Assembly (NCBI GenBank): GCA_016218045.1
Contig: JACRFB010000052.1
Coordinates: 144,481 to 180,023, forward strand
Reading direction: 5' to 3'
DNA length: 35,543 nucleotides
Origin: Ignavibacteriota bacterium
GTDB lineage: Bacteria; Bacteroidota; Ignavibacteria; SZUA-365
Under the pieces are notes generated by a model. That model was not told the DNA's origin. It saw only the letters and a program-made list of their open reading frames with translations, and searched no databases. Shown one piece after another: positions 17,589 through 35,543 of the stretch. The position numbers and the translations under genes were made by a program. The first letter of the stretch is position 1. Every line of letters starts with the position of its first letter.

Positions 17589-17633
17589 AAGGTGAAAGGG
17601 ACACGGGAAAACATAGGTCGTGGATCTGGAATG

Positions 17634-17995
17634 CATGTGCGTCCAGTACGAATGGGCTCCGGCAGGGCCGACCGGCGGTCGATATACTCCTGCTAAGACC
17701 TGCGCACAGTCGAATCTCCGGCCCGGCATCACAGCGCACATCGGCCTCATCGCGTTGTTTTGAGGGCGACCGCCGGTCGATGTACTGTTGTTGAGTCTCG
17801 CATAGCATCGAACCTCCAGACTGGCCTCACAGCGCACATCGGCCTCATCGCGTTGTTTTGAGGGCGACCGGAGGTTGATACATTCCTGCTAAGACCTGCG
17901 TGCAGTCGAACCTCCGGACCTGCATCACAGCTCAGATCGGCCTCGTTGCGTTGTTTTGAGGGCGACCGCCGGTCGCCCCTGTCGGAGGCAGACCG
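17634..17995. repeat. 98-bp-period tandem array upstream of the RAYT gene
   Basis: Units starting at 17732, 17830 and 17928 are exactly 98 bp apart and begin with the same text (CAGC[GT]CA[CG]ATCGGCCTC). A fourth, earlier unit (17634-17731) matches only in its right two thirds. Each unit carries a palindromic core: 17669-17681, 17764-17780, 17862-17878 (degenerate) and 17960-17978 (perfect). The left end of the first unit (about 17648-17682) is instead nearly the same as the downstream 115-bp repeat, in the same direction. The last core (17960-17995) is the reverse complement of that downstream repeat. Together with the flanks, this fills the 574-bp gap between the RND gene and the transposase. 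I see no gene in it. Confidence 0.9.
17960..17978. repeat. REP palindrome, upstream inverted copy
   Basis: GGGCGACCGCCGGTCGCCC is a 9-bp inverted repeat with a single central base (in practice an 8-bp stem with a GCC loop). The 16 bases after it (CCTGTCGGAGGCAGAC) are the reverse complement of the bases that precede the three downstream palindromes (variants of TCCGACAG), so this REP points the opposite way to those. It lies about 185 bp before the transposase start. Confidence 0.85.
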
Positions 17996-18162
17996 CGGAC
18001 AAGACAAACGCAGCTTGGATCGAGAGAGTCCGGCAAGCACTTCTTTAGGCTCTCATCCAGCGGGAACAAAAATTCATGTCCGCGCGTACTACACTACATG
18101 TGTTTCGACCCTATCGGGATCGCAGCACACGAATCCAAAAACAGCAAGGGAAGCGTTTCAGG

Positions 18163-18765
18163 ATGAGTACGCCGCGTATGATCTTTAGAAGAAGGAACAC
18201 AAGACGATGCCGTTCGCATTCATACAGCGGGGATGGTATGTACCATTTAACGCTGCGTTCCGCGGTGATGGAAAATCTCTTTGGGATGGTGACTCAGGCA
18301 GGGGTTGTACTAAATGAATATGGGCGGATCGCACATGAAGAGCTCCTTCGCACAGAACAAATCCGCCAGGAACTCAGCATTCTTCGTTTTGTGATCATGC
18401 CGAATCACATTCATTTGCTCGTTGTTCTCAAGCGTTCAACCGATTTTTCTTTATCGAATTCGCGGACAAAGGTATCGGGATCAGCATATAACCGGCGCAG
18501 GTCTACTCATGCTGGCACCGGGCCACATCCCCGCTCTACCGCAGGCCCACCGCCGCGATCACTCGGCTCCTTCGTTGCAGGCTACAAGTCTATCATCACT
18601 AGGAGAATTCGAGAAATCTCTGGACAGAGCGGAGCGGTTATTTGGCAGAGGAATTATGATGATAGAATCGTCCGTTCGCACCGCATGAAACAAATTGTCT
18701 GTGGCTACATTCAACGAAATCCCCAACGTGAATGGATACGCCTTCAGCAGCATCAAATCCCCTGA
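18163..18765 (+). CDS. REP-associated tyrosine transposase (RAYT, Y1_Tnp / HUH)
   Basis: A 200-residue single-domain HUH nuclease of the REP-associated (RAYT) group. The landmarks are in the right order: a YHLTLRS strand after the start, LFG and VLNEYGRIAHEEL, the HUH motif in MPNHIHLL (residues 79-86), SLGSFVAGYKSIITRRI, the catalytic tyrosine Y165 in WQRNYDDRIVR, and YIQRNPQREW near the end. RAYTs nick and rejoin single-stranded REP hairpins, and are thought to spread and maintain REP elements instead of moving as ordinary insertion sequences. Here matching palindromes flank the gene in inverted orientation. The Pro/Arg/Thr-rich middle (about 110-130) is a variable linker; I see no frameshift. 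The start is uncertain: ATG 18163 fits the family, but 18076 and 18175 are also in frame. Confidence 0.88.
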   Translation: MSTPRMIFRRRNTRRCRSHSYSGDGMYHLTLRSAVMENLFGMVTQAGVVLNEYGRIAHEELLRTEQIRQELSILRFVIMPNHIHLLVVLKRSTDFSLSNSRTKVSGSAYNRRRSTHAGTGPHPRSTAGPPPRSLGSFVAGYKSIITRRIREISGQSGAVIWQRNYDDRIVRSHRMKQIVCGYIQRNPQREWIRLQQHQIP

Positions 18766-18835
18766 ACAATTGAACGAAAATCTGAAAGATTCGATCCGAA
18801 ACGTGTGTTCGATCCCCACGAATGGGCTCCGACAG

Positions 18836-18854
18836 GGGCGACCGGCGGTCGCCC
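18836..18854. repeat. REP palindrome, downstream copy 1
   Basis: GGGCGACCGGCGGTCGCCC, able to form an 8-bp stem with a GGC loop. It is preceded by GGGCTCCGACAG and followed by TT, the orientation opposite to the upstream copy at 17960. Confidence 0.88.
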
Positions 18855-18950
18855 TTCATTCGGCAGACTGGATCCGCACCGCGATGTTGTTGAAGAATTC
18901 CTCTTTCGATCCGAAACGTGTGTTCGATCCCCACGAATGGGCTCCGACAG

Positions 18951-18969
18951 AGGCGACCGGCGGTCGCCC
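18951..18969. repeat. REP palindrome, downstream copy 2
   Basis: Identical to copy 1 except that the first base is A instead of G, which opens the terminal base pair of the hairpin. Same direction and 115 bp further on. Confidence 0.85.
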
Positions 18970-19065
18970 TTCAACCGCACACGTCGATACGCATATGGAT
19001 AATGTTGAAGAATTCCTCTTTCGATCCGAAACGTGTGTTCGATCCCCACGAATGGGCTCCGACAG

Positions 19066-19084
19066 GGGCGACCGGCGGTCGCCC
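19066..19084. repeat. REP palindrome, downstream copy 3
   Basis: Identical to copy 1, in the same direction and 230 bp from it. It ends the array; sequence similarity to the other units stops about two bases after the palindrome. Confidence 0.88.
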
Positions 19085-19179
19085 TTGCCGCAAAGGTTCG
19101 GACACCTTAATCGCCCCGCACACATTCACACCGCGGCATGACACCGTGCGCCGGAGTCAACCATCGCGCCTCTATGCCA

Positions 19180-19959
19180 TTACAAGCGCATCCCCAACGA
19201 CACGCCGAACTGGACCGGATTATGTTGTAATGATGGGTGTGTGGGAATAAGGGCGGTGAGCTGATACGACCAACCGATTTCGGGAGTCAGTGTCATCGTA
19301 TCCATGAAGACGAAATCGTAGCCCGCTATCATCGACACCGAGACCAGGCCGATGCGCAAATCGGCGAAGTGTGCGTCGAGGGCTTTGTCGGTGACCACCC
19401 ATGCACACGGAGTGCCTGTAGTCTGGTAATCAGCGACACAGCCAAGGATTTCATCCGCATCGGTGTAGCGTCCGGGGAGAACGAGTGAAAATTCGGGTCC
19501 TCCAGCGAGCCAGAATCTGCCGATCCCGCTGTGCCACTGCCCAAGAAGTGAACATGAGAGACGCGTGAGAGACATGTCGGCCGATCGCCGCATCATGACC
19601 TTCTGCAGGCGGATGGTCCCGTCGCTGCCGCGTGCAGGGATGGTGACAGTCCGTGTCTTCTCGTACGCCGCGGTGTACTGTTGCACCGCCATACGGGCGA
19701 GCACGCGCAGGTTGTCAGTAATACCGTATGAAAATCCCGCTCCCAGATACGCACCGAAACCAGTGGGGCTCTCATCGAACGTACATTCACAGGTGCTGGT
19801 AAATGATCCGCTCCCGCGCACGAGAACGGCGCCCGCCTGCACATGAAATACAAAGTATCCGGCGCCCGGCGCAAGCACCGGATCAGCAGGCTGAGCAGCA
19901 AGCGGGATGGATGCCGCGATGAGGAGCAACACGGTTTTGCTCCATCGTAAACATATCAT
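19180..19959 (-). CDS. Predicted outer-membrane beta-barrel protein with CxC motif (paralogue 3 of 3)
   Basis: A 259-residue exported protein of unknown function: signal peptide (ending PLAAQ), then alternating hydrophobic/polar strands typical of an eight- to ten-strand outer-membrane barrel. Near the N-terminus it has GSFTSTCECTF (C57, C59), shared with the two genes upstream. Other shared blocks are LAGGPEFSLVLPGRY, FADLRIGLVSVSMIAGYD and a last strand ending in Leu (FGVSLGMRL), as expected for a barrel C-terminus. It is the last of three adjacent paralogues on the minus strand, 64 bp after the second. The two cysteines could form a disulfide or bind a ligand; nothing in the neighbourhood says which. 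Confidence 0.75.
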   Translation of the reverse strand: MICLRWSKTVLLLIAASIPLAAQPADPVLAPGAGYFVFHVQAGAVLVRGSGSFTSTCECTFDESPTGFGAYLGAGFSYGITDNLRVLARMAVQQYTAAYEKTRTVTIPARGSDGTIRLQKVMMRRSADMSLTRLSCSLLGQWHSGIGRFWLAGGPEFSLVLPGRYTDADEILGCVADYQTTGTPCAWVVTDKALDAHFADLRIGLVSVSMIAGYDFVFMDTMTLTPEIGWSYQLTALIPTHPSLQHNPVQFGVSLGMRL

Positions 19960-20023
19960 TGCCAGAAGTGCTGAAGATTGAGACGCGTTCGTCCAGACCC
20001 TGCGAGCAGGCGTATGAGGAGAT

Positions 20024-20806
20024 CTAGAGCTGAACAGTAAGCGCTACACCCGCGCGCAGCGGGAAATGACGTAACGCGTTTGTTGATGGCAGAAATGTTG
20101 TCACCGGATACGACCACATCAGCTCGGGGGTGATGGTCAGTCGTTTGTCGAGGATCAGATCGTACCCGGCGCCGATACACAACGATACACCAACGGTGCG
20201 CATGTCCTTGAACTGTTCATCGAGCGGTTGGTCTGCCAGGAGTATGTTCCGTGTGCCTGTGGATGCGTATACCCCGCGGCCCGAAATGATTTCCTCGGTC
20301 TCCTTGTATGCACCGGGAAAAAGAATCGCAACCTCCGGTCCGCCTGCAAGCCACAGTGTTTCGAAACCGCTGCGCCAGCGGCCCAGCACAGCGAAAGCGA
20401 GGGTGCCATATGCCATTTCCGCTTCGCGACGGAAGACAACCGTTGCGGTGGAACCGTCGGACGTGTAACGCAGCGCCGTGTTTTCCTTCGTGTAGGTGGC
20501 GGCGAGTGTTTGGTACGCAACACGCCCGAGCACGTCGATATCGCCCGTAACGGCGTACGAGATGCCCGCTCCGCCATAGCCGCCGAAGCCGGAGAGTCCC
20601 GCATCGAACAGACAGTCGCAGGATGTTGTGAAGGTCCCACTGCCGAGCGCCAGCAGGCCGCCGAAAAGCAGACTCGCATCCACACGGCCGACCCGCTTCG
20701 AATACTCCCCTTCACTGCCGCCCTGTGCGTACGTTGATGCGACGGAAAAGAGCAGACTGCAACAACACACAATGCCGATCGACACGACTCGTCGAATGTT
20801 TTTCAT
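20024..20806 (-). CDS. Predicted outer-membrane beta-barrel protein with CxC motif (paralogue 2 of 3)
   Basis: A 260-residue paralogue of its two neighbours. A signal peptide (MKNIRRVVSI..., ending STYAQ, with an unusual CCC in the hydrophobic part) is followed by SGTFTTSCDCLF (C63, C65). It shares LAGGPEVAILFPGAYKETEEI and FKDMRTVGVSLCIGAGYD with paralogue 3 and ends VALTVQL. It is clearly closer to paralogue 3 than to paralogue 1. The ATG at 20806 overlaps the stop of paralogue 1 (ATGA), which fixes the start although the frame stays open upstream, and suggests coupled translation. Function not recognised. Confidence 0.76.
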   Translation of the reverse strand: MKNIRRVVSIGIVCCCSLLFSVASTYAQGGSEGEYSKRVGRVDASLLFGGLLALGSGTFTTSCDCLFDAGLSGFGGYGGAGISYAVTGDIDVLGRVAYQTLAATYTKENTALRYTSDGSTATVVFRREAEMAYGTLAFAVLGRWRSGFETLWLAGGPEVAILFPGAYKETEEIISGRGVYASTGTRNILLADQPLDEQFKDMRTVGVSLCIGAGYDLILDKRLTITPELMWSYPVTTFLPSTNALRHFPLRAGVALTVQL

Positions 20807-21624
20807 AGTCCGAACCTTATGAGGAGGCCAAACCCAACGCGCGGCTGAGACCACGACGGAGCGTTTGTGGAGAGTGATGTCAGAGGATAAGACAGACTCA
20901 CCCGTGGTGCGAGATAGGTGTCTGTTCCGATGCGGATGTCGTAGCCCACCGCGGCTTCCAAACCAACCTGCAGACGCCGCACAGGTAGGACCTTGCTCCC
21001 ATCAGCGTCGGTCAGCGCATCAATGGCCCCGTCGTGGTACGTGCGATCCGTAGTGCCCGTTTCAGGATAGCCGATTCCCGCGGTTTGAATACGTTCGGTT
21101 TCGAGCAGGTGATCTCCGCCGAGGTACCCCAGTGAAAGACCGGCGGCGAAATGCAGAGGCGCCTGCCAGGGACGCCATTCCGCCGAAGCAAGAACGCCAA
21201 ACCACGAATATGAAAGCTCGACGCGCCGTGCAAAATCGATGGGACGGTACATGCCAAGGTCGGCAATATAGGTGATGCGTGTTTCGGCCGTCTCGTACGT
21301 CGCGTCCAGACGCCGGTACAGGCCGGCGACGGCAAAACGGAATTGCTCGTTGATCGCCATATCGAACTGCAGACCTGCCGTGGGGCCGGCTCCGCTCCCC
21401 TCTCCGTATCCGCAATCACAGGCCGTGGAAAAACTGCCGGCCGATATCGCAACATCGTACGAGAGAATTACGCCGATGTAGCGACGCCGCGCGGATGGTC
21501 CCTCATCAACTTCAGACGCAACCGCAAACGACTGCATCACGGAGAGAAGGCCATACAGCACGGCGACCAGGACACTCCGCCCTGCGGCCGCGTGAAATGA
21601 GCTGGAAAAGCGCTCTGTCTGCAT
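20803..21624 (-). CDS. Predicted outer-membrane beta-barrel protein with CxC motif (paralogue 1 of 3)
   Basis: A 273-residue protein, first of the three barrel genes and the most divergent. It has a long signal region (hydrophobic core about residues 17-36), then AGSFSTACDCGY (C69, C71). It has strands such as FRFAVAGLYRRLDATYE and LQVGLEAAVGYD, and a C-terminal strand FGLLIRFGL. The LAGGPE block of the other two is here LHFAAGLSLGYLGGD. The ATG at 21624 has no ribosome-binding site. A possible promoter ends only a few bases before it, so the message may be leaderless or the true start may lie a little inside. It overlaps paralogue 2 by 4 bp. Confidence 0.74.
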   Translation of the reverse strand: MQTERFSSSFHAAAGRSVLVAVLYGLLSVMQSFAVASEVDEGPSARRRYIGVILSYDVAISAGSFSTACDCGYGEGSGAGPTAGLQFDMAINEQFRFAVAGLYRRLDATYETAETRITYIADLGMYRPIDFARRVELSYSWFGVLASAEWRPWQAPLHFAAGLSLGYLGGDHLLETERIQTAGIGYPETGTTDRTYHDGAIDALTDADGSKVLPVRRLQVGLEAAVGYDIRIGTDTYLAPRVSLSYPLTSLSTNAPSWSQPRVGFGLLIRFGL

Positions 21625-24295: not shown

Positions 24296-25090
24296 TCACC
24301 AGTCCTTTTCCACGGGCACGCGCGTGGCGGCGCGTTTCTCGCGGTTCTTCTTCTGCAGTTCCTTCTCGTCGCGCTCGAGGGCCTTCAGTATCTGCTCGGC
24401 CTGCTGCTTCGACATCTGCTTGTTGTCGCGCGGCGGGGGCGGCTGCTGCGAATCCTGTTTCTTCTGGTCCTGCTTCTGCTGATCGGGTTTCTGCTGCTGA
24501 TCCTGCTTGTCCTTGTCCTGCTTCTGCTGATCCTGCTTGTTCTGGTCCTGTTTGTTCTGATCCTGTTTCTGCTTGTCCTGTTTCTGATCCTGCTTTTCCT
24601 GGTCCTTTTTCTGATCCTGCTTCTGATCCTTGTTCTGATTCTTCTGCTGTTGCTGCTGCTGCGCGAGCTTCTGCATCGCGTAGAGCAGGTTGTAGCGCGC
24701 GTCCTCGTCGTTGGGATTCAGTTTCAGCGACTGTTTAAACGCCTCGACGGCCTGTTCGTACTGCCCCATTTTCATGGCGGCGTTGCCGCCGTTGTACCAG
24801 AGCCGGGCGCCCTCTTCCTTGCTGCGCGCGCGCTCGCCCGCGCGTTTGTAGTGCTCGATGGCGCCTGCAGGATCCTCGGCGCGGTAGGCCGTGTTGCCGA
24901 GATTGTAGTGGCCTTCGACACGCCCGGGCTCCGTTGCCACGGCGTCGTTGTAGCGCTTTTTCGCTTCGGGGAATTTTTTCTCGCGATACAGGTCGTTGCC
25001 CTCGTTCACCTCGCGGCGGTACGTGGATTGCGCGTGCGCCAGCAATGGCGCGACGGCGAGAAGGAGCAGGATCAGGACGATGTGTTTCAT
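24296..25090 (-). CDS. batC: BatC-like TPR protein with a long Gln/Lys/Asp tract
   Basis: A 264-residue exported protein. Signal peptide (ending LLAHAQ), then two to three tetratricopeptide repeats (about 22-140: NEGNDLYREKKFPEAKKRYN; EGHYNLGNTAYRAEDPAGAI; WYNGGNAAMKMGQYEQAVEA). Next comes a low-complexity tract of about 75 residues (about 144-220) made almost only of Q, K, D and N in three- to four-residue patterns, then PPPP and a charged C-terminal helix. On the DNA this tract (about 24448-24660) is an imperfect short tandem repeat, so its length may vary between strains. ATG 25090 has AAGGGA nine bases upstream; ATG 25108, overlapping the batB stop, is the alternative. It lacks membrane helices after the signal. 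Confidence 0.85.
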   Translation of the reverse strand: MKHIVLILLLLAVAPLLAHAQSTYRREVNEGNDLYREKKFPEAKKRYNDAVATEPGRVEGHYNLGNTAYRAEDPAGAIEHYKRAGERARSKEEGARLWYNGGNAAMKMGQYEQAVEAFKQSLKLNPNDEDARYNLLYAMQKLAQQQQQQKNQNKDQKQDQKKDQEKQDQKQDKQKQDQNKQDQNKQDQQKQDKDKQDQQQKPDQQKQDQKKQDSQQPPPPRDNKQMSKQQAEQILKALERDEKELQKKNREKRAATRVPVEKDW

Positions 25091-35238: not shown

Positions 35239-35543
35239 CGATTTCGTGATATCAATCCGCCATTCCGTCAGGCCGCTCTGCCATTCCATGATCGCAAAAG
35301 TCCATTCGGTGAAATAAAACGTCCTTCCGGAAATGCGAAACGTCCTTCCGGAAATGCGAAACGTCCTTCCGGAAATGCGACACGTCCTTCCGGAAATGCG
35401 ACACGTCCTTCCGGAAATGTGAAACGTCCTTCCGGAAATGTGAAACGTCCTTCCGGAAATGTGAAACGTCCTTCCGGAAATGTGAAACGTCCTTCCGGAA
35501 ATGTGAAACGTCCTTCCGGAAATGTGAAACATCCTTCCGGAAA
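35239..35543. repeat. 21-bp-period minisatellite centred on TTCCGGAA, runs off the window
   Basis: From 35323 to the right edge, ten near-identical 21-bp units follow each other (unit starts every 21 bp from 35323), each with the palindrome TTCCGGAA and then ATG[CT]GA[AC]ACGT; the last one is cut by the edge. Leftwards the same 21-bp phase continues in decayed units at 35302, 35281, 35260 and 35239. Spacing of 21 bp is two DNA helix turns. All three minus-strand frames stay open through the perfect part because 21 is a multiple of 3, so an open frame here is not evidence of a gene. The bases from 35110 to 35238 hold only the leader and promoter features listed. Confidence 0.93.

Follow-up and report, generated by a model that had tools for sequence, protein, structure and literature searches.

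The window (the whole stretch of DNA that was analysed, 35,543 nt of contig C52) contains on its plus strand, at 18163..18765, a gene for a 200-aa REP-associated tyrosine transposase (RAYT, or TnpA-REP) of a subclass 2.4-like type, annotated from Pfam and NCBIfam matches, alignment and an AlphaFold2 (AF2) model. The open frame extends over 18076-18765 and an upstream start at 18076 is possible; comparison with homologues and a plausible ribosome-binding site favour 18163 (M30) as the likely start. The product of this ORF matches the Pfam Y1_Tnp family (PF01797) at 31 bits, against a cut-off of 23. Numbered from M1 = 18076, the HUH histidines are H111 and H113 (codons 18406-18414), which lie in an NHIH motif at residues 110-113 and are both invariant across 59 homologues; a WQ motif is present at residues 190-191, and the catalytic tyrosine is Y211 (codon 18706-18708), within the sequence YIQRNP. 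An earlier note on this DNA had named the HUH and Tyr residues as a check on its transposase, and as both are intact the transposase stands. A profile built from five RAYTs retrieves the E. coli TnpAREP (4ER8) with an E value of 3e-6, and the HUH, W-Q and Y-x-x-x-N-P motifs align with this protein free of gaps: W190, Q191, D196, R197, R200 and Y211 correspond to 4ER8 W94, Q95, E100, H101, R104 and Y115, the E100/H101 pair being replaced by D and R. The AF2 model (pLDDT 83) has the Y1 transposase fold and was matched by Foldseek to the ISDra2, IS608 and 4ER8 transposases at E values of about 1e-6 (1.5e-6 for 4ER8). The HUH strand is separated from helix C by a variable insert of ~45 residues (between E82-89 and H134-153), modelled mostly at low confidence, and the protein stops shortly past the Tyr helix. 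The GC content of the gene is 49.8%, compared with 60.3% for the window, and its codon usage differs from that of the neighbouring genes, which suggests a foreign origin.

As the earlier note had described, the RAYT gene lies between a 98-bp and a 115-bp tandem array. Tandem Repeats Finder (TRF) placed the upstream array at 17664..17975 (98-bp period, 3.2 copies, 78% matches) and the downstream array at 18790..19086 (115-bp period, 2.6 copies, 91% matches); with copies matching at these levels, the description of the arrays as exact has to be dropped. An assembly artefact was considered as their source and rejected, since the array copies differ from one another and both arrays are internal to the contig. 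Both carry the hairpin GGGCGACC-n3-GGTCGCCC, which has a perfect stem of 8 bp and a 3-nt loop; GGGCGACC is found 10 times in the window, where 2.4 occurrences are expected and none of 100 shuffles reaches 10. The further claim that the common hairpin is inverted from one side to the other is borne out by the 29-nt sequence AGGGCGACCGCCGGTCGCCCCTGTCGGAG, which includes the whole hairpin and is present upstream of the RAYT gene and, as its exact reverse complement, downstream.

The hairpin is part of a longer element, termed type A here, with the layout CGATCC-linker-TCCGACAG-hairpin, in which a 5' tag (CGATCY) is followed by a linker and by a foot, ACAG, at the base of the hairpin. The upstream array lies within a composite, REP-array-iREP (17621-18023), that constitutes an inverted REP pair of the BIME or REPIN kind. 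The left end of this composite is a degenerate, outermost type A REP at 17621..17681 on the plus strand (C52:162101-162161; R1 model, 36.8 bits), with the tag GGATCT, the foot GCAG and a half-decayed hairpin; on its other side a complete, inverted type A REP occupies 17960..18023 on the minus strand (C52:162440-162503:-; 68 bits), comprising the hairpin (17960-17978), the foot CTGT, the linker and the tag GGATCG. The units of the 98-bp array begin within the hairpin. Each 115-bp unit of the downstream array contains a whole type A element, and three such elements were located on the plus strand: element 1 at 18791..18854 (68.7 bits), with the CGATCC tag, 30-nt linker, TCCGACAG foot and hairpin; element 2 at 18906..18969 (61.1 bits), in which one G at the base of the hairpin is replaced by A; and element 3 at 19021..19084 (68.7 bits).

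Copies of the palindrome elsewhere in the genome were the other check named in the earlier note, and they are present: the 16-mer palindrome occurs 27 times in 4.77 Mb, against 0 for a reversed-pattern control, and about 39 copies pass E<1e-5 in a search with a covariance model of the 64-nt element. The same model search detected no element of comparable kind in 60 relatives, and the core pattern TCCG(N)CAGGGGCGACC has 28 matches in this genome and one in 196 relatives. The mapped copies appear extragenic, with 36 of 36 on the fetched stretches lying outside ORFs of coding-like codon usage. Direct tandem pairs occur at C49, C63, C61, C68, C7 and C5, and inverted pairs at C5, C7 and C28. The elements thus have the properties expected of REPs, being palindromic, mostly extragenic, multi-copy and cognate to one RAYT, at a copy number (~39) that is low beside the hundreds found in Pseudomonas or E. 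coli. Canonical GTAG REPs are present in this genome in small numbers, with about eight palindromic pattern matches, and their overall total was below that of the reversed-pattern control. The intergenic flanks of the dispersed type A copies are a mosaic of several repeat families; 8-bp AGACGATY repeats adjoin the copies at L041, L043, L045, L046, L050, L051 and L052, several of which also have a palindromic repeat, GGAACGGGAGAGGGCCGGGGTGAGGGTG.

The genome has a second RAYT gene, at C57:21985-22602, whose product is 55% identical to that of the window; RAYTs are thus present as a low number of divergent copies. A wider scan of genome contigs returned only RAYT relatives with identities of up to ~37%. 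The second locus (L049 4019-5300, equivalent to C57:21618-22900) is also bracketed by arrays: the downstream one has an 84-bp period (4.1 copies), and upstream lies a short-period array of ~40 bp repeats. Its flanks carry REPs of a second type, B, with the layout CGTTGTA-linker-TCCGCAG-hairpin, the tag CGTTGT and the foot GCAG. It likewise contains an inverted REP pair, and inverted, outward-pointing CGTTGTA tags close it at both ends. In the window, the tags adjacent to the RAYT gene point inward and the right end is without a closing inverted REP. Each tag type goes with its own foot type among the elements compared (19 of type A, 11 of type B), the exceptions being the type A element C63_1491, a tandem duplicate in which no tag can be clearly made out, and the degenerate outer copy in the window. 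Neither ACAG in type A nor GCAG in type B is the GT[AG]G foot, while other RAYT loci mostly have GTAG. Replacement of 4ER8 E100/H101 by D196/R197 was considered as the cause of the altered foot and rejected, since the D-R RAYTs of loci L061 and L092 have GTAG feet. A third REP variant, CGGATAAGGGCGACCGGCAGGTCGCCC, is found at C5:37534, C5:43682, C7:2970 and C28:530, inverted relative to type B copies; the complete sequence is present on C5 and C7, and at the C5 sites short arrays of ~35 bp are enclosed between third-variant and type B REPs. No RAYT cognate to this variant was identified.

The distance between tag and foot is constant, the linker measuring 30 nt in all aligned copies compared. 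When the six tag positions were compared between copies with a linker identity of no more than 50%, 42 of 42 tag positions were identical in type B, against 76 of 210 linker positions; the corresponding values for type A were 73/84 and 181/420. These counts are descriptive and do not amount to a blind test, because the tag was picked by eye for its apparent conservation, and part of the type A conservation reflects common descent, because the dispersed copies are also alike upstream of the tag. The strongest single case is the pair of left and right copies at the C57 locus, in which the linker is identical at 7 of 30 positions, the level of chance, and the tag, foot and spacing are wholly identical. 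No upstream tag was seen at RAYT loci of other genomes, where the shared sequence begins at GTAG, and a non-exhaustive search of the RAYT/REP literature found no such 5' tag. Folding of the 30-nt linker did not consistently yield a second conserved hairpin.

That the locus comprises a RAYT with cognate REPs is close to certain, and the earlier note's proposal of a RAYT with a genome-wide REP family is upheld by the 27 palindromes, the ~39 elements and the alignment and fold match to 4ER8. Taken further, the locus is best read as a REPtron, with a probability of about 0.8: a TnpAY1 of subclass 2.4 (Bertels group 4), an HUH/Y1 single-stranded DNA endonuclease, with its cognate REPs clustered in cis and scattered in trans. 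The REPs would be bipartite, with the tag as the likely cleavage site. The RAYT is predicted to bind its REP as a folded single strand, i.e., the ACAG foot and the hairpin of 8 bp with a 3-nt loop, and to cut where the foot directs it, most likely at the tag, which lies 30 nt upstream; transfer of the cut strand to another site during replication could then disperse the family. Both arrays, of 98-bp and 115-bp period, would be by-products of local amplification of REP elements, the upstream array representing the interior of the inverted REP pair, multiplied through slippage or template switching at the hairpins or through unequal crossing-over. The borders of its units within the hairpin are as slippage or template switching there would give. 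REPs are cleaved in vitro by TnpAREP, and the mechanism of their dissemination is still unknown (PMC8266576). Three observations count against the REPtron reading: the ACAG foot falls outside the GT[AG]G consensus, the copy number of the family is low, and both RAYTs miss the cut-off of 80 bits of the NCBIfam model NF047646 (REP-associated tyrosine transposase), the window protein scoring 48 bits (E 1.1e-12) and the C57 protein 55 bits. This cut-off is a model threshold and not a biological trait.

Several known systems resemble the locus. The NHIH, WQ and Y-I-x-x-NP motifs and the variable insert after the HUH motif fit, at the sequence level, the subclass 2.4 (group 4) RAYTs of Quentin 2018 (PMC6006769), which are likewise patchily distributed across phyla and whose REPs, like those described here, have a long GGGCG...CGCCC palindrome with a G-C base at the foot of the stem and occur in both orientations around the gene. 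In our own locus set, subclass 2.4 RAYT loci with GTAG-GGGCG...CGCCC REPs were found in many phyla. The REPs of subclass 2.4 have GT[AG]G, whereas those of this genome have an ACAG or GCAG foot and an additional 5' tag at a constant distance. The E. coli TnpAREP (REPtron Ec; 4ER8) shares with the window RAYT its fold and its aligned HUH, W, Q, R and Tyr residues, and tandem clusters of its BIME-2 REPs bracket the gene as the arrays do here; E. coli REPs, however, have a bulged stem and GTAG, unlike the perfect stem in the window. In P. fluorescens SBW25 (PMC3116915), each RAYT has its separate REP group and tandem REPIN units with flanking DNA lie beside the cognate RAYT, as in this genome, but the REPs are of the GTAG type and number in the hundreds and up.

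The earlier note held that exact long-period arrays around a RAYT would be a new arrangement for an FCB-type genome and that most RAYT loci described so far are those of Gammaproteobacteria. RAYTs are well described beyond that class (PMC6006769), and within it tandem REP clusters flanking RAYTs have been published repeatedly: the E. coli rayt gene lies between BIME-2 elements and about one RAYT in three is joined to a BIME (Nunvar 2010, PMC2817692), tandem REPIN clusters adjoin RAYTs in SBW25 (Bertels and Rainey 2011, PMC3116915), and large REP clusters consist of REPs repeated in tandem along with the DNA that flanks them (Di Nocera 2013, PMC3733652). The arrangement also recurs at L075, from the same class as the window, where a RAYT gene is bracketed by two oppositely oriented REP arrays of 35 bp. 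A T9SS sorting tail (TIGR04183) makes the note's assignment to an FCB-type genome plausible. As an arrangement the arrays are ordinary; the actual peculiarities are the non-GTAG foot (ACAG/GCAG) and the fixed-distance 5' tag, both overlooked by the earlier note, together with the two matched RAYT/REP types. Two RAYT paralogues with two matched non-GTAG REP types in one genome constitute a natural test of specificity.

The left ends of IS608 and ISDra2 (IS200/IS605) have a cleavage site at a fixed distance 5' of the hairpin and a guide at its foot, a layout that the order tag-linker-foot-hairpin would match, and the transposases share the fold of the window RAYT. By analogy with these ends the tag is put forward as a cleavage or strand-transfer site, which has nearly an even chance of being correct. 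The fuller scheme is more tentative: the RAYT would recognise the foot and hairpin and cut at the tag exactly 30 nt upstream, as at IS200/IS605 left ends, with the two paralogues using matched codes (CGATC/ACAG and CGTTGT/GCAG). If the tag is the cut site, REPs would be tied directly to the cleavage-site and guide logic of IS200/IS605, and bipartite REPs would be a form linking REPs to the ends of those elements. The locus itself is not an IS200/IS605 insertion sequence: the window RAYT has YIQRNP (Y---NP) in place of the Y---Q motif, tnpB was not seen at the locus, and the family consists of short, dispersed, extragenic elements. A TIRtron (TIRYT, subclass 2.1), which is distinguished by GGGGWSAS in terminal inverted repeats and a C-terminal HTH extension, was also rejected, since GGGGCGAC does not fit GGGGWSAS and the protein stops soon after the Tyr helix.

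The growth of the arrays may have a simpler cause. They could be plain minisatellites, formed at GC-rich hairpins through slipped replication and recombination with no involvement of the RAYT in array growth, as is suggested by the unit boundaries inside the hairpin, by the drift of the array copies (78% and 91%) and by other arrays in this genome, which form around hairpin halves. Arrays are nevertheless commoner beside RAYTs, with a tandem array within 800 bp in 13 of 93 RAYT loci, as against 3 of 99 windows 1.6-3.2 kb away, a comparison that is rough because the near zone is larger. This account of the arrays is a serious one, if somewhat less probable than its negation, and is compatible with the REPtron reading as far as the dispersal step is concerned. 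It is also possible, though on balance doubtful, that the locus is an ordinary GTAG-type REPtron whose foot has drifted and that the conserved tag is a functionless remnant of common descent. The likeness of dispersed type A and B copies on either side of the tag agrees with this, and the described degeneration of GTAG to GYAG (PMC3733652) covers the GCAG of type B, but ACAG is outside the described range, and the C57 left and right copies are identical in tag, foot and spacing across a linker at chance level.

Two other explanations are improbable. The hairpins might be structural or regulatory (terminators, or BIME-type gyrase or IHF sites) and retained for the host, the neighbouring transposase gene being unrelated; every mapped copy is extragenic, and REPs and BIMEs play such roles in E. 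coli (PMC8266576), but at both loci the REP type matches the RAYT paralogue beside it, and the repeats are restricted to this genome, both of which point to a transposase-linked family, for which host use could be secondary. Least probable is a self-mobilising unit in which the RAYT, inverted tags and REPs move together like an IS or TIRtron, since, despite the outward tags bounding the C57 locus and the GC-poor RAYT gene, there are just two RAYTs, 55% identical, and the window tags face inward with no closing inverted REP at the right end.

Adjoining the RAYT locus on the minus strand, at 19180-21624, are three consecutive related ORFs that probably encode outer-membrane beta-barrel proteins. 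At 24452-24646, a low-complexity repeat encodes a K/Q/D-rich sequence within a TPR-like ORF of a Bat-type operon. A further tandem array, with a 21-bp period, 10.8 copies and 98% matches, occupies 35317-35543 and finishes exactly at the contig end; its minus-strand translation consists of FHISGRT repeats.
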